From: an uncultured Prochlorococcus sp.
GTDB taxonomy: Bacteria; Cyanobacteriota; Cyanobacteriia; PCC-6307; Cyanobiaceae
Reading direction: 5' to 3'
DNA: 34,466 nucleotides
Assembly: GCA_902596585.1 (NCBI GenBank)
Contig: CACJUL010000012.1
Coordinates: 1-34,466 of the forward strand
The translations under genes and the position numbers were made by a program. Shown here piece after piece: positions 4,864-29,907 of the stretch (the first letter of the stretch is position 1; each line of letters starts with the position of its first letter). Under the pieces are notes generated by a model. The model did no database searches. It had not been told where the DNA came from and saw nothing but the letters and a program-made list of their open reading frames with translations.

Positions 4864-5649
4864 CTAACTCAAATTATCAAGTGGAATATTATTAATATAA
4901 TTTTTCAATTTTATAGAGTCAAGAAATCCATTTTCAATAAGTTTTTGCGCCACAAAAAAATCTAATGGATTGTCAATATCAAACCCTTCAATAGGATCAA
5001 TAATAATATTCTTAGCATTATTATGAAGAAAAGTTTTACATTTTAAGAATTCAATTGTTTCGGAAATAATAACAGCAGGACTTAATTGGAAAAATTTAGG
5101 CATTTCTTGTCTGTTAGCTAATTTAAATTTTTCGGGAATCCAATCTTTCATAAATCCATCTGGCCTAATTTCATTGCACTTTAAAGGACTAGTTGAAGCT
5201 TCAGTAATAGAAAAAATACCTTTTATTTTTTTATCTGAAAACAAAGTCTCAAACCCTCTATTTAAATTTTCTAATTTTCTAAATGGTGTTGTAGGCTCAA
5301 GTAAGCAAATATGATTTGGAGTGTAGTCATTTTTTTTACACCAATCTAAAGTATGAATTACAGCATCCTCTTGCTTAGAAGTGTCTAAGGCAAGTTCGTG
5401 AGGCCTTAAAAAAGGAACTTCTGCTCCGAATTCTAAACTAACTTTTTTAATTGCTTCACTATCTGTAGAAACAATTAGCCTATCAATATGTTGGCATTTT
5501 TTTGCCACATTAATGGTATAACCAATTAGTGGGACTCCATTTAATTCTCTTATATTTTTATTGACAACTCCTTTAGAACCTCCTCTAGCAGTTATGAGCC
5601 CTAAACATTTTGAACTTTTCATATTTTTTCTGAGATAATTATCATCCAT
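4864..5649 (-). CDS. CMP-nonulosonate (NeuA/PtmB-type) cytidylyltransferase, copy A
   Basis: Predicted soluble enzyme of 261 residues that joins CMP from CTP to a nine-carbon (sialic/legionaminic-type) or related keto sugar. The nucleotide-binding ITARGGSKGV (about residues 19-28) is the family signature; VSTDSEAI, FLRPHELALDTS and LLEPTTPFR follow in the usual order. ATG at 5649 lies 7 bases after the preceding HD gene; an internal ATG at 5622 (residue 10) is an alternative start nearer to the usual family N-terminus. It is the last gene of the five-gene operon. An SDR lies two genes upstream, as in the Campylobacter ptmA/ptmB pairing (from memory). A second, shorter paralogue lies at 29224-29907, yet only one NeuB-type synthase is present, so the substrate of this copy is uncertain. 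Confidence 0.87.
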   Translation of the reverse strand: MDDNYLRKNMKSSKCLGLITARGGSKGVVNKNIRELNGVPLIGYTINVAKKCQHIDRLIVSTDSEAIKKVSLEFGAEVPFLRPHELALDTSKQEDAVIHTLDWCKKNDYTPNHICLLEPTTPFRKLENLNRGFETLFSDKKIKGIFSITEASTSPLKCNEIRPDGFMKDWIPEKFKLANRQEMPKFFQLSPAVIISETIEFLKCKTFLHNNAKNIIIDPIEGFDIDNPLDFFVAQKLIENGFLDSIKLKNYINNIPLDNLS

Positions 5650-13281: not shown

Positions 13282-15165
13282 GTGTCCAAGACTTTAAAGA
13301 TTGATAATTCCGCATCTAAGAGTAACTATCGCAAGGATATTGATGGTCTTAGAGCATTTGCAGTGATAGCCGTTATAATTAATCATTTTAACAAAGAATT
13401 ATTGCCTGGAGGTTATTTAGGTGTTGATATATTTTTTGTCATTTCTGGATTTGTAATTACATCATCTCTTAATGAAAGACCTAGTAAAAACTTTAAAGAT
13501 TTTATAAGCGGATTTTATGAAAGGCGATTAAAAAGATTAGTTCCAGCATTATCTGTTTTTGTTTTAATAACAAGTATATTAGTTTGTTTTTTCAATCCAA
13601 GTCCAGGAGTGGCATTAAGAACAGGAATAGCATCCTTATTTGGAATATCGAATTTATATTTACTTCAACAATCAACTGATTATTTTTCACAATCAACTCA
13701 ACTAAACGTATTCACACAAACATGGTCTCTTGGGGTTGAAGAACAGTTTTATATCCTATTCCCATTATTAATATGGTGTTCTGGTTTTGGGAGGCAAACA
13801 AAAAATGGAGAGAGGACTCTATTTTTAACTGTTTTGGGCTTAACCATTGCTTCTTTAATAGCATTTATTTATCTATATATAAATAACCAATCAGCGGCTT
13901 ATTTTTTGATGCCAACAAGGTTTTGGGAAATGTCATCAGGGTGTCTTCTTTTTTTATTGATGAAAAAAAGTCCATTGGTAAAAGAAAGATTTAAAAGCAT
14001 GCCATCATCTCTTTTGTTGCTATTGATAATAGCAATAATGTATCTCCCTTCATTTTTGGCAATAGGATCAACAATATCAGTTGTAGCTTTGACTTTCATT
14101 CTTATTGGATCTTTGACAAATAAAAAAGCTGCTTACAAAATATTAACCAACCCTAGAGTTAATTTTATAGGTCTTATTTCTTATTCTCTATATTTATGGC
14201 ATTGGGGTGTCTTATCATTAAGTCGCTGGACTATAGGCATACATTGGTGGTCATTCCCTTTTCAATTATTAGTAATTTTTCTTTTATCAGCAGCCTCATA
14301 TAAATGGATTGAAAAACCACTTAGAAATGGGATCTGGTTTGAGCGTCGTTGGAAAAATATACTCTTTATTACAAAAGTAATGTTTCTAGTCTCTTTGAGT
14401 TTAGTCGCGATTGGAAGGCCACTAAAAGGCAGACTATATACTGGTGATCCTTACAACAAATGGAATTTAAGAGGTTATGGAGAGACAAAAATTATAAATA
14501 ATATTGTTCGGCCAACTATATTTCTTTTAGGAGATAGTCATGCAGGGCATTATGGTGCAGTAATGCAATATTTATCTAATAAAGAGGATTTTAATTTTAT
14601 AATGCATCCTCAAGGAGAGGGGCTTAATATTAAAAAAGAAAAAGGAACAATAGAGCTTATACTTGCACCTCTGAGAAAATATAAAAATATTTTTAAAAAA
14701 GGAGATATCGTAATCCTCTCATCAAATATTGGAGAATATAGAGGTAAAGGAGAATTTTTGAATGCTTATAAAACTTTTATTAAAAATACAAATAAAATTG
14801 GTATGAAATATTATTTAATTTCTCCAACTCCAATATTTGATGTTTTTAAAAAAGGTGATACATGCCAAGAAGAATGGTATCGTCCTAAATGGGCAATAGC
14901 GTCAATTTGTCTAACTCAAAAAAATAAAAATGATTGGATTGATAGTAATAATGATTCATTAATATCAATTAATAAATTTCTTTTATCTAATCCGGAAGTT
15001 TCTTATATTGATACATTTTCCATACTGTGCCCCGATCAAATTTGCAGAAACCATGATAATCAGTCTTTAATGTATAAAGATGCACATCATCTGACTTCTT
15101 ATGGAGCGATGAAAATGAGTAAAGTTTTAGAAACTCTTTTGTTCTCAAATCAAGTAAATTTTTAA
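13282..15165 (+). CDS. Acyltransferase 3 with C-terminal SGNH domain (OafA-like), paralogue 2
   Basis: 627-residue membrane O-acyltransferase. The acyltransferase-3 domain starts at IDGLRAFAVIAVIINH (catalytic His at its end), includes SLGVEEQFYILF and LISYSLYLWHWG, and spans about ten hydrophobic helices. The SGNH domain follows with GDSH (Ser419) and DAHH (Asp600, His603). The start is GTG at 13282; there is no ATG before the conserved domain and no clear Shine-Dalgarno. It resembles paralogue 1 closely, with a shorter linker between domains, and is followed by paralogue 3. It probably O-acylates a sugar of the island's glycan; donor and target are unknown. Confidence 0.9.
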   Translation: MSKTLKIDNSASKSNYRKDIDGLRAFAVIAVIINHFNKELLPGGYLGVDIFFVISGFVITSSLNERPSKNFKDFISGFYERRLKRLVPALSVFVLITSILVCFFNPSPGVALRTGIASLFGISNLYLLQQSTDYFSQSTQLNVFTQTWSLGVEEQFYILFPLLIWCSGFGRQTKNGERTLFLTVLGLTIASLIAFIYLYINNQSAAYFLMPTRFWEMSSGCLLFLLMKKSPLVKERFKSMPSSLLLLLIIAIMYLPSFLAIGSTISVVALTFILIGSLTNKKAAYKILTNPRVNFIGLISYSLYLWHWGVLSLSRWTIGIHWWSFPFQLLVIFLLSAASYKWIEKPLRNGIWFERRWKNILFITKVMFLVSLSLVAIGRPLKGRLYTGDPYNKWNLRGYGETKIINNIVRPTIFLLGDSHAGHYGAVMQYLSNKEDFNFIMHPQGEGLNIKKEKGTIELILAPLRKYKNIFKKGDIVILSSNIGEYRGKGEFLNAYKTFIKNTNKIGMKYYLISPTPIFDVFKKGDTCQEEWYRPKWAIASICLTQKNKNDWIDSNNDSLISINKFLLSNPEVSYIDTFSILCPDQICRNHDNQSLMYKDAHHLTSYGAMKMSKVLETLLFSNQVNF

Positions 15166-15292: not shown

Positions 15293-17446
15293 TTGAATTT
15301 GATTGAAAATAAAAAAAAAAGTAATCAGTACATTGCTGAAATTGATGGCCTTAGAGCAATAGCGATTATAGCTGTCATATTAAATCATCTAGGCTCTGAC
15401 ATTTTGCAAAGTGGTTTTTTAGGCGTTGATATCTTTTTTGTGATTTCAGGATATGTAATAACAAAATCAGTTTTAAAGACTCAATTTATTAATTTTTCTG
15501 AATTTATAAAATCTTTCTTTGAGAAAAGGTTCAAGAGGTTATTTCCTGCTTTATTTGTTTATGTAATATTTATTTCAATTGTCGTATGTTTATTCAACCC
15601 CTTCCCTAATGTTTCTATTAGGACAGGTTTTTTTTCGTTATTAGGACTTTCCAATTTTTACCTATTTAGGTATTCAACTGATTATTTTGCACAAGCAAGT
15701 TACTTAAATCCATTCTTAAATACTTGGTCTTTATCACTGGAAGAACAATTTTATCTGATATTTCCACTAATTATCTTATTAAGTGGATTTTTTAAAAACG
15801 ATACAAAAAAAATTTCTTTTTTGGTTACCATAGTCGCTATTTTCTCAAGCATATCTCTTTTCTTATTTTTGAAGTATTATTATGTTTATTCAAGTTTTTC
15901 ATATTTTTTAATACCAACTAGATTCTGGGAGATTGGAATTGGAGTTTTGATCTATATTTTTCATAATAATTTTGAAGACAAATTAACAAAAAAATTTTTG
16001 AAAAATTTAAATTTCACTCAGATATTTGGAACAATTCTTCTTCTTTTAATTTTTCTTTCAACAAACGAATTATCTCATATTAAAACGTTGTTTGTAGTTT
16101 TAATAACTTCATACCTTCTAATATCCTTTAGTCAGAAATCTTTTTTAAATAATGTACTTTCTAGTAAAGTGCTTGTTTATATTGGAAAACTTTCATATTC
16201 ACTTTATCTATGGCATTGGGGAATTATTTCTCTTTCATATTGGATTTATGGAGATAACAGTAATCCTTTTTCCCTTCTGTTAATAATTTTCTTTATTTCA
16301 TATCTTTCTTTTAAATATATTGAAAATCCTTTAAGAAAAATAGAATGGAAAATTTATTTTATGAGAACTTATAGAATAGTTTTATGTTTGATAACTTTTT
16401 CCTTTTTTTTCATATATTTTTTAGGTGATTCTAGACAAACAAGATATAGTTTGATTGCATTTTTTACAAGAAATAATATTGATCCAGAAAGTTTCTATCT
16501 ACCTCAGCATGTCCCTGGAACAAGTATAAATAGGAAAAATTGTCATGGAAGTATGATTGTTAATTATGAATCATTCTCAGATGTAGCAAAAAAATGTACA
16601 TATAATTATTCAAAAAATAACAAAAACCAATCTAGGAGAATTTTTCTCGCAGGTGATTCACATTCTTATGCTTTAAGAAATTTGATAGCTGACTTGTCTA
16701 ATAAATATAAAATTTCTTTTACATCAGTATCAGGGTCTATGTTCCCAAGTGATGAACGTTGGTTTAAGTCAAATTCAAAACTTTATACAAGTGATTCACT
16801 ATTAAAAGTAACTTATGATTATAAAAAATTTATTCTTAACAATGCAAAAAAAGAAGATATAGTAGTTATTTCAAATAGGATTGTCGCTGTCTACACTGAG
16901 CCAGTAAATAAATTACAAGGGAAATTGTATAGTGAGGCTTTATTTTATGACAAGGATGGCAAATCAATATCTCGCGAAAAATCTTTAGATCTTTGGTTCA
17001 AGGATTTAGAGCTGTTCGTCAATGAAGCAAAAAAAAGAAATATTTCAATTATATATGTTTTACCAGTACCTGAATTTGAATTATCTGCTCAAGCATGTTT
17101 ATTCTCAGCTGATAGGAAAAATTGTGGTGAAATAGATAAAAACCTTTTATCAAAAAAATATAAGAAGATTGATAATCATTTGAGATTTATCTCAGATAAA
17201 TATAACAACTTTTCTCTTATTGATCCTTTTAAAGAACTTTGTAACGAAAAAAAATGCTTTATGAGTGGAATATCTTTTGATAATACTAGAAAGGTTTCTT
17301 ATTACAACGATAATAATCATTTATCTTTAACTGGATCGAAAAAATTGTTCAATCAATTTGATGATATTTTTAAAAAACTTTTATCCTTTGATATTGATAA
17401 TTTTGATAATGTTAACTCCTTTTTGGAAAAAAAAGTTAAATTCTGA
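15293..17446 (+). CDS. Acyltransferase 3 with C-terminal SGNH domain (OafA-like), paralogue 3
   Basis: 717-residue member of the same family, the most divergent of the three. IDGLRAIAIIAVILNH opens the acyltransferase domain, SLSLEEQFYLIF replaces SLGVEEQFY, and KLSYSLYLWHWG is near its end. The SGNH domain shows GDSH (Ser456) and DNNH (Asp673, His676). The start is TTG at 15293 (a second TTG lies at 15299); no ATG precedes the conserved region. A TATAAT at 15286-15291 almost touches the start. It is the last plus-strand gene before the convergent fcl gene. Function as for the paralogues, with probably a different target. Confidence 0.88.
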   Translation: MNLIENKKKSNQYIAEIDGLRAIAIIAVILNHLGSDILQSGFLGVDIFFVISGYVITKSVLKTQFINFSEFIKSFFEKRFKRLFPALFVYVIFISIVVCLFNPFPNVSIRTGFFSLLGLSNFYLFRYSTDYFAQASYLNPFLNTWSLSLEEQFYLIFPLIILLSGFFKNDTKKISFLVTIVAIFSSISLFLFLKYYYVYSSFSYFLIPTRFWEIGIGVLIYIFHNNFEDKLTKKFLKNLNFTQIFGTILLLLIFLSTNELSHIKTLFVVLITSYLLISFSQKSFLNNVLSSKVLVYIGKLSYSLYLWHWGIISLSYWIYGDNSNPFSLLLIIFFISYLSFKYIENPLRKIEWKIYFMRTYRIVLCLITFSFFFIYFLGDSRQTRYSLIAFFTRNNIDPESFYLPQHVPGTSINRKNCHGSMIVNYESFSDVAKKCTYNYSKNNKNQSRRIFLAGDSHSYALRNLIADLSNKYKISFTSVSGSMFPSDERWFKSNSKLYTSDSLLKVTYDYKKFILNNAKKEDIVVISNRIVAVYTEPVNKLQGKLYSEALFYDKDGKSISREKSLDLWFKDLELFVNEAKKRNISIIYVLPVPEFELSAQACLFSADRKNCGEIDKNLLSKKYKKIDNHLRFISDKYNNFSLIDPFKELCNEKKCFMSGISFDNTRKVSYYNDNNHLSLTGSKKLFNQFDDIFKKLLSFDIDNFDNVNSFLEKKVKF

Positions 17447-19874: not shown

Positions 19875-21254
19875 ATGAAAGTCAAAGACAAAATTTTAAT
19901 CTTTATAGATATGGAAATGATATTAAGACATTTTATTGCTAATGAAACATTTAAGGAATTAAATAAAAATTATGATTTGGTATACGTATTTAATAATGAT
20001 AGATATAATTTCAAGAAAAATAAAATTGTTAGTGATCATATTTCAAGTGAAAAAATTAGAATAACAAATATACCAAGATCAAGGATAGGATATTGGTTTT
20101 ACCTTTATATTACTACTGTTCTAAGGCAGCAAAGAGGTACTAAGAATTTCTCTGCACGTATAAGACAAGAATATTTAAGACTTGGAAGAAGAAATGTTAT
20201 TTTAGCTTTAATTGCAGGCTTGCCTATCGTTTATCATATATTCCGTTTTCTTTTTGTTAGAAAAATGGGAATCCATTCTAGTGTTACTGAAATCATAAAA
20301 AAAGAAAAACCTAAAATAATTATTCATCCAAGTATCCTTCAAGGTTATTACGTTAACGAACTTATAAGATATACCGTTGTCGATGACAACTCAATTCCTC
20401 TAATCTTTTTAATGAACTCTTGGGATAACCCATCCGCAAAAGCTTTTTGCAGTGGATCACCAAGTAAGTTAGTTGTATGGGGTGAACAGAGCAAAAATCA
20501 TGCCATTGAGTATATGAAAATGAATCCTCAAAATATTGAATGTTTTGGGGCAGCCCAGTTTGAAATTTATAAACAGGAAACTAAGTTTACTAGACAAGAA
20601 CTTTGCGACTTTTTTAAAGTAGATAAAAGTAAAAGGATTATTCTTTATGCTGGAGCTGGCCATGGTAAATATGAATCTTTATACTTGGAATTGTTAGATA
20701 GTTACATTAAAAATGGCGCACTTCCAAATTGTCATGTAATTTACAGACCACATCCTTGGAGAGGAGGATTAGGAGAGGGTGAAAGAGATTTCTTTTCGCT
20801 AAATCTTCAAAATATAACAATGGATCCAACTATGTCTGATTACTATAGAAAAGATATTGAGAAACCTTCCAATAATATGTTCTTAACTGACTATAGAAAT
20901 ACTAGGGATTTACTGAGTCTGGTTGATTGTGTGATCTCTCCTCTTTCAACAATGCTTGTGGAGTCAATAATTAATGGTAAACCAATATTAATGTTTTTCC
21001 CTGAACGTCAATATAGTAGTGATTTTGCAATAGATGAAATTCATTTTGCAGAATTTTTAAAAATTAAGATAATAAATAAATGTTTAAAAGAAGATGATTT
21101 TTTAAAATCCTGCCAAAATTTATATAAACAAATTGATGATAAAAATATTTCTCTTGCTTTAAAAAAAGCTTCTAATTTTTTTGTATCATCCTCAAAGAAA
21201 TCTTATGGCGAGCAATTACTGAAATTAGTCGAAAATTTAAATAAAAAAACCTAG
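19875..21254 (+). CDS. Putative GT-B-fold glycosyltransferase, unassigned family
   Basis: 459-residue protein that I place loosely among GT-B-like transferases (capsule, CDP-glycerol or 2-epimerase-like C-terminal fold). The evidence is a C-terminal nucleotide-binding-like half with ILYAGAGHGKYES, VIYRPHPWRGG and SPLSTMLVESIINGKPILMF, the last being the serine/glutamate-rich motif seen in such enzymes. A hydrophobic run near residues 113-130 may associate with the membrane. ATG start at 19875. It is the only plus-strand gene between gmd and the sulfur cassette; its stop is a single base from the end of the convergent cysteine dioxygenase gene. It is a candidate for transferring a local sugar, possibly the sulfonated one. 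Specificity unknown. Confidence 0.65.
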   Translation: MKVKDKILIFIDMEMILRHFIANETFKELNKNYDLVYVFNNDRYNFKKNKIVSDHISSEKIRITNIPRSRIGYWFYLYITTVLRQQRGTKNFSARIRQEYLRLGRRNVILALIAGLPIVYHIFRFLFVRKMGIHSSVTEIIKKEKPKIIIHPSILQGYYVNELIRYTVVDDNSIPLIFLMNSWDNPSAKAFCSGSPSKLVVWGEQSKNHAIEYMKMNPQNIECFGAAQFEIYKQETKFTRQELCDFFKVDKSKRIILYAGAGHGKYESLYLELLDSYIKNGALPNCHVIYRPHPWRGGLGEGERDFFSLNLQNITMDPTMSDYYRKDIEKPSNNMFLTDYRNTRDLLSLVDCVISPLSTMLVESIINGKPILMFFPERQYSSDFAIDEIHFAEFLKIKIINKCLKEDDFLKSCQNLYKQIDDKNISLALKKASNFFVSSSKKSYGEQLLKLVENLNKKT

Positions 21255-21255
21255 A

Positions 21256-21822
21256 TTAATAACATTGAATAATTTTATTTATGGTCTCAATATCTTTGAA
21301 CTCTGATCTATAACCTTCAATTTCCTGAAATTCATCATCAAGATAAATCCCCTTATTTAAATTAAAGTTATTACCATAAATATGCATACTTATAGTTTGA
21401 TGTAAACTTTCTCCAGTTGAGACTTTATGCCAATCAGATATAGGTGGACAAAAGGATTGAGAACTGCCATCTTTTAGAATTAAACCACCTCTTGAAAAAA
21501 AAGATCCTTCTTTTGTTTTATTCCAATCTTCAACAAAAAGAAATCCATTGAAAACATGGAGTATACCCCAAGTATTGTGACAATGAATCTTACCAGTGTA
21601 GTTGAATGAGAAAACGTCAATTTGAATATTAAATAGATTTCTATCATCTTGATGTATTAAATATCTTCCATAAGGGATATCAGTAACTTTTTTAAAGTGA
21701 TATTTACTAAGTAGAGGGAATAATTCTTGTTGGAGTTTACAAATTGATTCCATGGTATGAATTTTATTAGTTGCAGTATATTTTTCAACAATATAAACTA
21801 ATGGTTTCCAAAGAGTATTCAT
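21256..21822 (-). CDS. Cysteine dioxygenase-type thiol dioxygenase (cupin)
   Basis: 188-residue non-heme iron enzyme that I predict oxidises L-cysteine to cysteine sulfinate with O2. Comparison with remembered mammalian cysteine dioxygenase is good along the core. IHCHNTWG gives iron ligands His80 and His82, SDWHKV gives His132, and SMHIYG gives the Ser145-His147-Tyr149 triad with the same 13-residue step from the third ligand. YGRYLIHQ places Arg53 where CDO Arg60 binds the cysteine carboxylate, which favours cysteine over 3-mercaptopropionate. The crosslinking Cys of animal CDO is Gly87, as in bacterial forms. Its start overlaps the PLP gene stop by ATGA, so the two are translationally coupled. 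Another thiol substrate remains possible. Confidence 0.78.
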   Translation of the reverse strand: MNTLWKPLVYIVEKYTATNKIHTMESICKLQQELFPLLSKYHFKKVTDIPYGRYLIHQDDRNLFNIQIDVFSFNYTGKIHCHNTWGILHVFNGFLFVEDWNKTKEGSFFSRGGLILKDGSSQSFCPPISDWHKVSTGESLHQTISMHIYGNNFNLNKGIYLDDEFQEIEGYRSEFKDIETINKIIQCY

Positions 21823-23000
21823 TTTTTTAAAAGTTCCACCATAGCAGCCACCATCCTTTCCACAGCATAATTTAGACGTTCTTCTGATTCATAATAAGGC
21901 AGACCAAATCTCAGCCTATAAATTGTCGAAGATTTTTTAGATATTTTAATAAATTTGCTATGTATATTTGAATTATGTAATTCTTGATAGTATTCATATG
22001 GTAAATTTCTAATTGGATTTTTCCAATCTAAGAGAATTACTGAGTCATTCATTGATATTTGAAAGATATTTTTTAAGATACTCTTTTCTAAAAGAACAAA
22101 AAATGTTTTTGCCAATTTAAGACTTTTACTAAAAACATTTTCATGACCTACTTCTTTTAAAATTAAAAGAGCCTCAAGTAAACCTGCATACGTTATAAAA
22201 CTTTGCCCACCTGATTCTTCAAAATATGAGGCTTTATTGATAGGGTCAATGGGTTCTCCATAATGGAATCTTGGCAACCTTTTTATAGTCTCTTTATTAA
22301 TCCACATAAAACCAGAACCCTGAGGCCCAAATAGCCATTTATGCCCTGAACAAACAACAATATCAGAGTTAGTAAAAATTATCTTTTCTATTCCAATGCT
22401 TTGAGCACTATCTAGAATAGTAATTGCATCTGGATATAGTTTCTTGATTATTTTAAAGCAACTATTTATCGGTAATTTTAAATTTTGATCCCAAGTTTTT
22501 TGAGAAAGCAAGAAAATATTTGGGATATTATTTTTTATAAAATTTTCAAACAGTTCAGAATTGAATAAAATTTGGTCACTAATTTTTATTACTTGATAAA
22601 AAGGGTGGTTCTCAAAATTTAATAAAGCCCCCTTATGCTCATGGTGACTGGTGAGAATTTTTACTGGATTATTTTTACTAGCTCCTTCCCAAAGTCGAAG
22701 GAAACTTTCACTTAATTTGTTACACCAAGATGTAGTAGAACCTCCAATTGCTAACTCATGATTTGGATGAGGCCACAATATATTTGCTTCTTCTCTAATT
22801 CTTTGTAAATTTGCTCTACCTTTTTTATAAATATTCAATGGGTTTTTATTATCTTTACAGGACTGATGAATAGCATTTATTACTGGCAAAGAAGGTGATC
22901 CCATTGTTCCAGGATTTAAATTCAAGATGTTTTTATTGTTTTCTATATCAAAGTATTTATTTTTGAATTTATCCCAATCAAAACTATTATTTTCTCTCAT
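21819..23000 (-). CDS. Class V PLP enzyme, possible cysteine sulfinate desulfinase/C-S lyase
   Basis: 393-residue fold-type I PLP protein of the aminotransferase class V/cysteine desulfurase superfamily. Visible residues are SHHEHKGALL (His122, ring stacking), ILDSAQSIG (Asp197 on the pyridine nitrogen, Gln200) and CSGHKWLFGPQGSG (Lys221, Schiff base), with YRLRFGLPYYESEERL near the C-terminus. The cysteines are 48, 93, 181 and 217; none lies in the C-terminal half where SufS/IscS carry the persulfide cysteine. In this family sulfinate cleavage does not need that cysteine, so with the coupled dioxygenase gene I infer release of sulfite (or SO2) and alanine from cysteine sulfinate. Other C-S lyase, epimerase or aminotransferase activity cannot be excluded. 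It is divergent from the SQD1-like gene. Confidence 0.7.
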   Translation of the reverse strand: MRENNSFDWDKFKNKYFDIENNKNILNLNPGTMGSPSLPVINAIHQSCKDNKNPLNIYKKGRANLQRIREEANILWPHPNHELAIGGSTTSWCNKLSESFLRLWEGASKNNPVKILTSHHEHKGALLNFENHPFYQVIKISDQILFNSELFENFIKNNIPNIFLLSQKTWDQNLKLPINSCFKIIKKLYPDAITILDSAQSIGIEKIIFTNSDIVVCSGHKWLFGPQGSGFMWINKETIKRLPRFHYGEPIDPINKASYFEESGGQSFITYAGLLEALLILKEVGHENVFSKSLKLAKTFFVLLEKSILKNIFQISMNDSVILLDWKNPIRNLPYEYYQELHNSNIHSKFIKISKKSSTIYRLRFGLPYYESEERLNYAVERMVAAMVELLKK

Positions 23001-23091
23001 TTATGAGTTAACAAGACTTAATTTTAATTTTATCTTATTTAATTTATATTAGTAATAGGTTAGAATTTAACACGGGTAAAATTCATACTTT
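23001..23091. promoter_or_regulatory. Divergent intergenic region of the sulfur cassette
   Basis: Ninety-one AT-rich bases between the PLP gene (minus) and the SQD1-like gene (plus) must carry promoters for both. A TAGAAT at 23061-23066 is a possible -10 for the plus-strand gene, without a convincing -35. No operator-like palindrome is clear. Confidence 0.35.
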
Positions 23092-24246
23092 ATGAAAATA
23101 GTTGTAGCAGGTGGAGATGGCTACATTGGTTGGCCATTATCTTTGAAGTTAGCAAAAAATTATCCTAATGCAAAAATTATTATTATTGATAATGGATTGA
23201 AAAGGAGATTGATAGAAAAACAATCAACTGAGAGTATAACTCCTATTTTATCTTTGGAGAATAGAGTAAAAGAAGCTAACGCAGAAGTATCGTTTAAAAA
23301 CTTGTCATTTAGGGATATCGATGTAAGCAGTGAAGAATTAGCCAAATTCATGGCATTAGAGAGACCAAACATCTTTTACCATTTAGCTCAAATACCATCA
23401 GCACCTTACTCTATGGCAAATGTGAATGGTGCAGTACACACTCTAGTAAATAATGAAGTTGGTAATACAAGACTCGCTTGGGCTGTAAGAAAATATTGTC
23501 CCGAATGTCACATTATTAAATTAGGCTCTTTCGGCGAATATTTTGCAGATGAGTTAGATGTTGCTGAAGGTTATTTTTGTCCTGAATATAAAGGTAAGAA
23601 ATCAACAGTACCTGTTCCCTACCCAAGGAGAGCAGATGATGTATATCACATAACGAAAATCAATGATTCGAATATTTTAGCCATGGCTACTAGCCAGTGG
23701 AATCTTAAAGTTACAGAAATAATGCAAGCAACTATTTTTGGAATTGGAACCGAAGAAACTTTATTAAAAGAATCTTTATATAACAGATTTGATTGCGATT
23801 CAAATTTTGGGACGGTTGTTAATAGATTTGTTGCACAAGCAATATTAAAAAAAGAACTTACAATTTATGGAACAGGAAAGCAAAGAACAGGCTTAATGTA
23901 TCTCCGAGACGCAATTGAATCTTTAGTGTCTTTAGTTGATTTAGATAGTAAATTTGGAGAACATAAGATAATAAATCATGTATCAGAGAAGGATTTCTGT
24001 ATTAATGAGATTGCTGATGTAGTTATAAATTGTGCAAATAAATATGGAATAAAAATTGTGGCTAAGCATGGTGATAATCCTAGATCTGAAAATGTGCTAG
24101 AAAAGAAAAAATATAGTATTGAGTCAAGTTATGCAAAATCTATTACCCCTATTGAAACAGCTATTACCGAAATGATTCAATTAGCTGATAGATATAAAGA
24201 TAGAATTTCTCCTGAGTTTGTTAGAGTTGGGAAAACGTGGTTTTAA
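23092..24246 (+). CDS. UDP-sulfoquinovose synthase homologue (SQD1/SqdB family)
   Basis: 384-residue extended SDR. Known family members make UDP-sulfoquinovose from UDP-glucose and sulfite. The N-terminus GGDGYIGWPL (7-16) matches the SQD1 GGDGYCGW motif; KRRLIEKQSTESITPI, SAPYSM (103-108), KLGSFGEY (143-150), FGTVVNRFVAQA and IYGTGKQRTG also follow SQD1 block by block. The catalytic Tyr185-His186 and Lys189 (YHITK) are kept; Ser146 replaces the usual Thr, and the Arg before SAPYSM is absent (IPSAPYSM). It is adjacent to the dioxygenase/PLP pair and shares its stop region with neuB. Placement in a glycan island suggests a surface sugar rather than SQDG lipid. A different sulfonated or 4-keto hexose is possible. 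Confidence 0.85.
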   Translation: MKIVVAGGDGYIGWPLSLKLAKNYPNAKIIIIDNGLKRRLIEKQSTESITPILSLENRVKEANAEVSFKNLSFRDIDVSSEELAKFMALERPNIFYHLAQIPSAPYSMANVNGAVHTLVNNEVGNTRLAWAVRKYCPECHIIKLGSFGEYFADELDVAEGYFCPEYKGKKSTVPVPYPRRADDVYHITKINDSNILAMATSQWNLKVTEIMQATIFGIGTEETLLKESLYNRFDCDSNFGTVVNRFVAQAILKKELTIYGTGKQRTGLMYLRDAIESLVSLVDLDSKFGEHKIINHVSEKDFCINEIADVVINCANKYGIKIVAKHGDNPRSENVLEKKKYSIESSYAKSITPIETAITEMIQLADRYKDRISPEFVRVGKTWF

Positions 24247-25241
24247 TTAATAACAGATTTTAAAGAAGATAATTCTATAGGACTACCTGATGACATCCCT
24301 TCAATAAAAGAATATTTATTCTCAAAATTTATATCTTCAAATCTAGTTCCTGTGAATGGTCTTTTCATTTCATAGCAATCGTAAGTTAATATTTCATCTT
24401 TTTTCACATCTTTTTTTAAATATGGAGATTTGCAAGCCCAAAAAATATTTTCTTTGGCTGATTCAGTTACAAATTTTTCATATAGTCCTATTTGATCGAA
24501 AGTCCTATTTAGCGATTTTCTTAGTTGTTTTAATTCACTAGGAAGAGAAGCAACTTTCCAATCTTGAGCATTCGGAATATTTTTTTCTAAAGTAATATGT
24601 CTTTCGATAATTTTCGCTCCAAAGCATATTGAATTGATACAAGCTAAATGGTCAGGCGTATGATCAGAATATCCGATATGACAATTTTCATACCTATTAG
24701 AGAAATCCTTTAGTACAGATAAATTAACTTCATTATCATTGGTAGGATAAGAGGTATTACAATGCAATATTGATAGTTCTTTCTTTTTTGATTTAGCAAT
24801 TTCTACGACGTTGTCAATGTCTTTAATATTGCTTAAACCGGTTGAATAGATTAAGTGATCGCAATAATCAAGACACTTAGAAATAAATGGTAAATTCCCC
24901 ACTTCCCCTGAACCAATTTTTAAAGCTTTGATATTTATGTTTTTTAGATAAGGTAAGATGTAATCATCATGTGGTGTGATAATGAAATCAATATTAGATT
25001 CATCGCAAAGTTTGGAGATTTTTATTATTTCCTCAACTTTTAATACTCTATCTTTAAGCCTTTTTTTCCAACCTTTAGCTTCATTTGCGAATAAATTATC
25101 TGCGCTAAAAACCTGAATTTTGAATGCATCGCAGTTGGCATCTATCGCTGCATTTAAAAGTTCTATAGCTTTCGTCATTGATCCAAAGTGAGCTACACCA
25201 GCTTCCGCTATTAAATAGGGATATTTATTAAAAGTAATCAT
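24243..25241 (-). CDS. NeuB-family nonulosonate synthase (sialic/legionaminic/pseudaminic acid type)
   Basis: 332-residue TIM-barrel enzyme that condenses phosphoenolpyruvate with a six-carbon amino sugar to give a nine-carbon acid. Family motifs: LIAEAGVAHFG, FIITPHD, KIGSGEVGNLPFI (108-120), LHCNTSYPT (159-167), GYSDHT (190-195) and IERHITLEK (212-220). The C-terminal SAF/antifreeze-like domain is present (about 265-332, with KRPFTGT). After IERHITLEK the usual GPDHxxSL is replaced by NAQDWKVASL, suggesting a divergent subgroup. Its start overlaps the amidotransferase stop by ATGA, so the product is probably an amidinated nonulosonate. It ends convergent with the SQD1-like gene, their TAA codons overlapping in TTAA. 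Which acid is formed cannot be told. Confidence 0.9.
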   Translation of the reverse strand: MITFNKYPYLIAEAGVAHFGSMTKAIELLNAAIDANCDAFKIQVFSADNLFANEAKGWKKRLKDRVLKVEEIIKISKLCDESNIDFIITPHDDYILPYLKNINIKALKIGSGEVGNLPFISKCLDYCDHLIYSTGLSNIKDIDNVVEIAKSKKKELSILHCNTSYPTNDNEVNLSVLKDFSNRYENCHIGYSDHTPDHLACINSICFGAKIIERHITLEKNIPNAQDWKVASLPSELKQLRKSLNRTFDQIGLYEKFVTESAKENIFWACKSPYLKKDVKKDEILTYDCYEMKRPFTGTRFEDINFENKYSFIEGMSSGSPIELSSLKSVIN

Positions 25242-29223: not shown

Positions 29224-29907
29224 TTATAAGCATAATTCATTACTTATAAAGTTTGCATATTTTAAATCTAATAAAGTATCAATATTAATACTCTCTATTA
29301 AATTCATTTCAATAAAACCAATTGGGTTTATTAAGAATCTTTTTTTATTGAATAATAAATTTCTATCTGTCGCATAAATAGCACTATTTATACGGCATAG
29401 ATTTGTCATTAATTGCCTTTGCTCAAATTTTTCGTTAGGAATCTGAATATATTTTCTCAAAAAATCCCCTTTTAGGTAAATATTTTCAGGCTTATTTTCC
29501 AGTGAGCAAATTGATACGATCGTTTTGTATGATTCTGTTTTTAATTTCTTAATTGTTTTTTTTATATGTTTTGAATTTCTAAATGGTGAGGTTGGCTCTA
29601 CCAGAAAAATATAATCTAAACTTTTTTTATAAATCTTTTCATATTCAGAAACGGCATGAATACAAGCATCTATTGATTTTGCAGTATCTGAAGCAAGTTC
29701 TTTTGGTCTAAGGAAAGGAACTTTTGCTCCATTTTTTAATGCTTCTGATTTTATCTTTTCGCTATCAGTTGAGACGATTACATCCATATGTTCAAGGCAG
29801 CTATTTATAGCTCTTTGTAAAAGTGATTTGTCTCCAACTTTTTGAAGATTTTTATTTTTAATACCTTTGCTACCTCCCCTCGCGGGTATTACTGCTAGGA
29901 AATTCAT
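29224..29907 (-). CDS. CMP-nonulosonate synthetase (NeuA/LegF type), copy B
   Basis: 227-residue cytidylyltransferase that activates a nonulosonic acid with CTP. AVIPARGGSKGIKNKN is at residues 5-20, followed by VSTDSEKI, VPFLRPKELASDTA and FLVEPTSPFRN. It starts at ATG 29907, 2 bases after the epimerase gene, the usual neuC-neuA arrangement. The clustered LegG-type epimerase and NeuB synthase make this the likely partner of the NeuB at 24243, in contrast to the copy at 4864-5649. Legionaminic acid is favoured over sialic acid by the gene context but is not proved. Confidence 0.9.
   Translation of the reverse strand: MNFLAVIPARGGSKGIKNKNLQKVGDKSLLQRAINSCLEHMDVIVSTDSEKIKSEALKNGAKVPFLRPKELASDTAKSIDACIHAVSEYEKIYKKSLDYIFLVEPTSPFRNSKHIKKTIKKLKTESYKTIVSICSLENKPENIYLKGDFLRKYIQIPNEKFEQRQLMTNLCRINSAIYATDRNLLFNKKRFLINPIGFIEMNLIESINIDTLLDLKYANFISNELCL

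Follow-up and report, generated by a model that had tools for sequence, protein, structure and literature searches.

How a sulfur donor is supplied to UDP-sulfoquinovose synthase in the cell is an old open question. It is raised by three neighbouring genes in DNA of an uncultured Prochlorococcus sp. (GenBank assembly GCA_902596585.1, contig CACJUL010000012.1), in a stretch of 34,466 nucleotides that is called the window here. The genes encode a thiol dioxygenase (DIOX), a class V pyridoxal 5'-phosphate enzyme (PLP) and a nucleotide-sugar short-chain dehydrogenase/reductase (SDR) that is homologous to the UDP-sulfoquinovose synthase SQD1 (SQD1-like). What would such enzymes do together in a surface-glycan island? 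The original prediction, made from the letters of this stretch, was that the first two release sulfite from cysteine and that the third uses it to make UDP-sulfoquinovose. On the comparisons presented here, it is probable that the three genes act in one sulfur-sugar pathway, and the sulfite route in the window is given a probability of about 0.5. The features of the cassette are as follows.

21256..21822, minus strand: thiol dioxygenase gene (DIOX), 188 amino acids, predicted Arg-type, with His80/His82/His132, Ser145-His147-Tyr149 and Arg53
21819..23000, minus strand: class V PLP enzyme gene (PLP), 393 amino acids, carbon-sulfur (C-S) lyase fold, with Lys221, His122 and Arg364
21819..21822, minus strand: ATGA in which the stop codon of PLP overlaps the start codon of DIOX, read from the sequence
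23001..23091, no strand: intergenic space of 91 bp between the PLP-DIOX pair and the divergent SQD1-like gene
23092..24246, plus strand: SQD1-like nucleotide-sugar SDR gene of the PLP-linked clade, 384 amino acids

All three open reading frames (ORFs) were confirmed at these coordinates, and the residues, motifs and ATGA overlap on which the original prediction was built are present. The ORFs are open and homologous to known proteins, which rules out frame artefacts. The overlap makes translational coupling of PLP and DIOX likely. The divergent orientation and the 91-bp gap place the SQD1-like gene outside their operon.

Linkage of the cassette genes in other genomes

A scan of 84,980 species genomes found ten SQD1-like relatives with 41–48% identity, the next having 37% or less (best 80 of 568), and later searches added that of genome G786 plus five more. 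These 16 relatives and the window make up a clade of 17 loci with a support of 91/92, which becomes 100/98 with two phage sequences added. Support of 100/100 is seen only against a haloarchaeal group; the branch holding exactly the 17 rows is the one with 91/92. The clade is apart from the lipid-type SqdB proteins, including the presumed lipid sqdB product of this genome. The tree was made from 84 of 135 sequences, leaving out near-copies, fragments and every second weaker genome locus, while residue counts covered all 135, with near-copies included singly. One further frame (G1091, 328 bits, 382 amino acids) was left out of the clade count, and with only the best 80 of the 568 relatives considered the clade may be larger than 17 loci. 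Searches of phylum and group genomes used samples drawn evenly from the larger groups.

Of the 17 clade loci, 15 have a PLP homologue joined to the SQD1-like gene, by fusion in 12 and as a neighbour in 3. The fusions, found in Spongiibacteraceae and Bacteroidota and exemplified by Litorivivens lipolytica, are single ORFs of 789–853 amino acids in seven loci and of 817–839 amino acids in five more. Because the two are fused in 12 loci, there is strong evidence that PLP and SQD1-like act together. The genes are separate in the window, in L113 (genome G676) and in L187 (genome G786). In these three unfused loci DIOX lies within two genes of PLP in every case, against 0 of the 12 fused loci; here and below, presence and absence refer to the DNA examined for each locus. 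The genes of L113 overlap, with DIOX 18 bases after PLP, and the order in L187 is SQD, PLP, a 525-amino-acid gene and DIOX. In the control, PLP or DIOX was found at E ≤1e-3 in none of 107 SQD1-like loci outside the clade (72 genome loci, 34 of them 15 kb or longer, and 35 viral loci). G772 and G808, the two other genomes with strong SQD1-like matches in the phylum of G676 (both of the Pro101/Met145 type), carry neither partner.

Within 235 genomes of the phylum of G676 there are two strong DIOX matches, in G676 (352 bits) and G786 (154 bits), and the same two genomes have clade-type SQD1-like genes (655 and 547 bits). The other eight DIOX matches score 21–37 bits. Both query alignments include G676, which leaves G786 as the independent case. 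Conserved co-occurrence, which the original prediction had put forward as its check, is thus present for SQD1-like and PLP and extends to DIOX in two further genomes. The co-occurrence of DIOX is the weaker evidence, with three loci of which two are sisters in the tree. A family 2 glycosyltransferase gene follows DIOX in both G676 and G786, that of G786 being nearest to polyprenyl-phosphate types, under their cut-offs, and the arrangement is consistent with sugar delivery to an envelope glycan.

L113 (CAMAXZ010000024.1) is labelled Klebsiella pneumoniae, a doubtful label that seems wrong, the G+C content being 72%. L098 is only 5.7 kb long, with no clear start codon at the beginning of its SQD part. 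A response-regulator-like gene encoding about 450 amino acids lies near the fusion in six Spongiibacteraceae loci (L096, L097, L231, L232, L233 and L234).

The genome is cyanobacterial, as is shown by split rpoC1/rpoC2 genes that match above cut-off; a peptide-motif scan for photosystem and other proteins gave no match in 20 stretches of the genome and L053. Among the relatives of this genome the cassette is rare; it belongs to a surface-glycan island and has probably been imported. Among 149 relatives DIOX is found at E ≤0.001 in its own genome only, and six others of 386 genomes of the phylum have weak matches of 20–28 bits. Across 266 genomes of the genus, PLP matches outside its own genome reach 38.7 bits at best. 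With a G+C content of 28–32%, the three genes resemble the window (28%). No relative was found in a single-sequence DIOX scan of genome contigs or in viral scans with DIOX, SQD1-like, PLP, A4 and A3 queries, and nothing was found in phage records searched with all three cassette proteins or in a distant DNA search of E. coli with the DIOX-PLP stretch. PLP matches occur in ten plasmid records; the two examined, one haloarchaeal and one from Terrisporobacter, have no adjoining sugar genes.

The dioxygenase and the PLP enzyme

The residue set of an Arg-type thiol dioxygenase is complete in DIOX, which keeps the three histidines, the Ser-His-Tyr triad and Arg53. The latter is at the position of Arg60 in cysteine dioxygenase (CDO), which separates Arg-type from Gln-type enzymes, a distinction made in PMC8050391, and it is Arg in all three cassette copies. 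The homologues in L113 and L187 have the same motif set and are 35% identical to DIOX over 139 and 182 aligned positions, respectively. DIOX matches the solved Azotobacter 3-mercaptopropionate dioxygenase (MDO) 6xb9 with E 7.5e-12, and its identity to an MDO is 32% over 114 positions. A structure prediction from two sequences had a pLDDT of 37 and was not used. DIOX is thus a predicted Arg-type, and potentially cysteine, dioxygenase, a type that suits cysteine better than a sugar thiol. The ligands, triad and Arg53 uphold the cysteine-type assignment made originally; the Pfam CDO family does not, as DIOX has no Pfam or NCBIfam match, CDO_I (PF05995) included.

The class V assignment of PLP is confirmed by a match to Pfam Aminotran_5 (E 8.4e-12) and by a predicted model with a pLDDT of 84. 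Its best matches, with Z of 32.4–33.7 in the 50 entries listed, are to SufS, C-DES, selenocysteine lyase, carbon-sulfoxide lyase and PvdN, on which it superposes with root-mean-square deviations of 2.7–3.7 Å over 340–363 residues. Most of the matching structures act on C-S or C-Se bonds. Lys221, His122 and Arg364 are invariant in nine aligned family sequences, and the window protein has the fold and the PLP site of a class V C-S lyase. It does not have the Cys of class II cysteine desulfurases: Phe350 is aligned with the catalytic Cys of SufS, which makes desulfurase chemistry through that residue unavailable to it. A Cys is present at this position in the other 14 of the 15 PLP proteins of the clade. 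From work on E. coli CsdA and CsdB, desulfination reportedly needs no catalytic Cys.

The SQD1-like protein

The SQD1-like protein matches Arabidopsis SQD1 with E 2e-67 and keeps GGDGYIGW, His97, Glu149, Tyr150, Tyr185 and Lys189. In PMC4388408, Ala mutants of H95, R101, M145, Y182 and K186 of the homologue Agl3 are inactive and T144A is active; the same source also deals with a distant gene cluster in haloarchaea. In the clade, residue 101 is Cys in 13 members, Pro in 3 and Arg in 1, and position 145 is Phe in 14 of the 17, a residue found there in none of the 118 sequences outside the clade. The clade relatives in L096, L100 and L113 score 351, 347 and 332 bits with the NCBIfam equivalog NF041015.

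Replacement of R101 by Pro was considered as a bar to sulfonation in itself and was rejected. Pro is common at this position elsewhere, being present in 40 of 72 other genome loci and in 31 of 35 viral loci, and the change alone may therefore leave function intact. In phage contigs L061 and L062 a gene with a 3'-phosphoadenosine 5'-phosphosulfate (PAPS) reductase domain immediately precedes an SQD1-like gene whose product has Pro at position 101, an arrangement that hints that Pro is compatible with sulfite use. A further epimerase gene is close to this pair in L062.

Four haloarchaeal homologues encoded on plasmids (L049, L056, L057 and L058) lack both R101 and M145, and the naming of haloarchaeal SqdB-like proteins as UDP-sulfoquinovose synthase looks doubtful. 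The plasmid stretches of L049, L056 and L057 include glycan genes. The SQD1-like gene of the window was also considered as the lipid sqdB and rejected, the presumed lipid sqdB being on another contig of the genome (G000:C39), where it is cut by the contig end.

The surface-glycan island and related phage loci

The cassette was predicted to lie in a surface-glycan island, and its neighbouring genes do encode surface-glycan enzymes. There are GDP-mannose-dehydratase-like and fucose-synthase-like genes, homologues of NeuB, WbuX, HisH and HisF, NeuC, two CMP-sugar-transferase-like genes and an ABC transporter. The two genes that adjoin the cassette are as follows.

19875..21254, plus strand: glycosyltransferase gene, BFO_1060-like, under the cut-off of that model, adjoining the cassette
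24243..25241, minus strand: NeuB-family nonulosonate synthase gene, convergent with the SQD1-like gene and overlapping it by 4 bases, in the island and outside the cassette proper

The CMP-sugar-transferase-like genes (4864–5649 and 29224–29907) differ from each other and are PseF-like, under cut-off. Three AT3-SGNH acyltransferases are encoded at 891–2909, 13282–15165 and 15293–17446.

A very similar island is present in L147, from a metagenome-assembled genome of Rhodospirillales, with identities of 61% for WbuX, 50% for the 19875–21254 glycosyltransferase and 44% for NeuC. Its SQD1-like gene adjoins the glycosyltransferase homologue, is of the Pro101/Met145 subtype and is without PLP or DIOX. 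SQD1-like genes occur with NeuB in 8 of the 35 phage loci, and with NeuC and a CMP transferase in one more (L063, L075, L076, L077, L078, L081, L085, L094 and L090). L077 has SQD1-like, NeuB, NeuC and CMP-sugar transferase genes all together. A phage-borne pathway to a modified nonulosonic acid is therefore possible on gene content. In L071 and L086, as read from the translations, the surroundings of the SQD1-like genes look like a phage replication module and like phage structural genes.

Proposed pathway and alternative explanations

The cassette is proposed to be a cysteine-fed module that would attach sulfur to C6 of a UDP-hexose destined for a surface glycan. DIOX would oxidise cysteine to cysteine sulfinate, which the class V PLP lyase would split into alanine and sulfite. 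The SQD1-like SDR would then oxidise C4 of a UDP-sugar, form the 5,6-ene and add the sulfite, giving a UDP-6-deoxy-6-sulfo-sugar for use by a glycosyltransferase of the island. The sugar itself and a direct hand-over of sulfite are, like each of these reactions, parts of the proposal. Conversion of cysteine through the sulfinate to sulfite and alanine is the simplest reading of the window because a PLP protein with Phe350 adjoins an Arg-type dioxygenase there.

Several observations weigh against this route. Three of the five residues essential in Agl3 are kept (His97, Tyr185 and Lys189), R101 being replaced by Pro102 and M145 by Phe147, and the window protein scores 305 bits with NF041015, missing its cut-off of 575. 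Its branch is long and its composition unusual, and its fork inside the clade has a support of 98/57, so that its exact place there is unsure. The closest solved relatives of DIOX are MDOs rather than CDOs. DIOX is absent from all 12 fused loci, and most of the SQD-PLP family may work without it. L101 and L102 are without PLP and DIOX alike, and L113 and L187 have DIOX and yet retain the desulfurase-type Cys along with Cys101. In a search of 11 genomes, of which 7 carry a fusion, PF05995 was found in none, although this model also misses DIOX itself; the window DIOX query matched only G676 among the 11.

The original interpretation is thus partly supported and is improved by the linkage evidence. 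UDP-sulfoquinovose as the product of the window protein is unproven, given the residues at the Agl3 R101 and M145 positions and a clade that differs from lipid SqdB. Sulfite as the sulfur species has its best support in the window; for the clade, where 12 of the 15 SQD-PLP loci have no dioxygenase, the matter is unsettled. Independence from sulfate reduction, also inferred originally, is not secured with an assembly that is 72% complete. CysH was not found in it, an absence that proves nothing; the only PAPS-reductase-domain match (23.0 bits, cut-off 22.5) was rejected as CysH, as the ORF looks like TilS in translation.

The alternative that survives best casts the PLP domain as a cysteine desulfurase in the greater part of the family. 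Its persulfide would be passed to Cys101 of the SDR and on to C6 of the 5,6-ene, producing a 6-thio sugar, and DIOX, where present, would oxidise the thiol or supply other sulfur species. Cys101 is found in 13 of the 15 PLP-linked members, in neither of the two members without PLP and in none of the 118 other sequences. Together with the SufS-aligned Cys kept in 14 of the 15 PLP proteins, this pairing agrees with a persulfide relay across the family as a whole and counts, like the 12 fusions without DIOX, against a general sulfite route. The window, however, has neither cysteine, and the relay as drawn cannot run there. L098 combines the PLP Cys with Pro at position 101, and an Arg-type dioxygenase is better suited to cysteine than to a sugar thiol. 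As an explanation of the cassette the relay is considered unlikely.

The same sulfite chemistry might instead act on UDP-N-acetylglucosamine, the product passing to NeuC, NeuB and a CMP transferase of the island, so that a sulfonated nonulosonic acid would result and not a sulfoquinovose residue. The overlap of the SQD1-like gene with NeuB at its 3' end, the NeuC and CMP-sugar transferase-like genes of the island, the phage loci with NeuB or NeuC described above and the very similar island of L147, which has the other SQD1-like subtype, all favour this. Residue 101 is presumably near the sugar, by analogy with Lys84 of GalE, so that the R101P change could widen specificity. However, NeuB, NeuC and CMP-transferase matches are found in none of the 16 other clade loci, and such an acid is not the general product; even for the window it is judged rather improbable.

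Least probable is that the SQD1-like protein acts simply as an epimerase or dehydratase, with no part in sulfur chemistry, and that PLP and DIOX belong to another branch, for example modifying a glycan-linked amino acid: the loss of R101 and M145, shared with the four haloarchaeal homologues, and the low NCBIfam score would fit, but the twelve fusions to a C-S lyase-fold protein, the thiol dioxygenase in three loci and the retained Glu149, Tyr150, Tyr185 and Lys189 would not.

Both the sulfite route and the persulfide relay could be accommodated, tentatively, in one new cysteine-fed class of nucleotide-sugar sulfur enzymes in which a C-S lyase passes nascent sulfur directly on to a dehydratase of the SQD1-like kind, in most cases as part of the same protein. 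The fusions might then transfer persulfide via two paired cysteines to make a thiosugar, and DIOX loci such as the window, where both cysteines are gone, might use sulfite to make a sulfosugar, possibly a sulfonated nonulosonic acid. The natural fusion makes direct sulfur hand-over testable in one protein; if it takes place, carbon-bound sulfur of surface glycans would have a source in cysteine. The clade is also marked off by this work, as scores alone would name its members epimerase or UDP-sulfoquinovose synthase.

Comparison with known systems

No earlier description of the SQD1-like/PLP/DIOX combination was known to the original prediction, and none is among the matches listed in open-licence literature, a scope outside which most subscription papers fall. 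Related literature includes PMC8987622, PMC8300815, PMC3276061 and PMC3266270.

DIOX is like the CDO/MDO family in its three-His site, its Ser-His-Tyr triad and the Arg-type position, Arg53. It differs in having no CDO_I match, in having MDOs as its nearest solved relatives and in its linkage to sugar genes. PLP shares its fold and the PLP Lys, His and Arg with SufS, CsdA/cysteine sulfinate desulfinase, C-DES, EgtE/Egt2 and PvdN. Its identity to the class II desulfurases and C-S lyases is 13–19%, the window copy has Phe for the catalytic Cys, and, unlike them, it is fused to or beside an SQD1-like SDR.

The Agl3-dependent sulfoquinovose of the Sulfolobus surface N-glycan is a sulfonated sugar in a surface glycoconjugate, as is proposed for the window. 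Agl3, however, has both R101 and M145, and we know of no PLP or DIOX gene linked to it, no search for one having been made. With the UDP-sulfoquinovose synthases as a group (SQD1, SqdB and Agl3) the SQD1-like protein shares homology over the full length, the NAD-binding motif, the Tyr/Lys pair and equivalents of Glu147 and Tyr148, whereas Pro in place of R101, Phe in place of M145, an NCBIfam score below the cut-off, a separate clade and the link to PLP set it apart from them.

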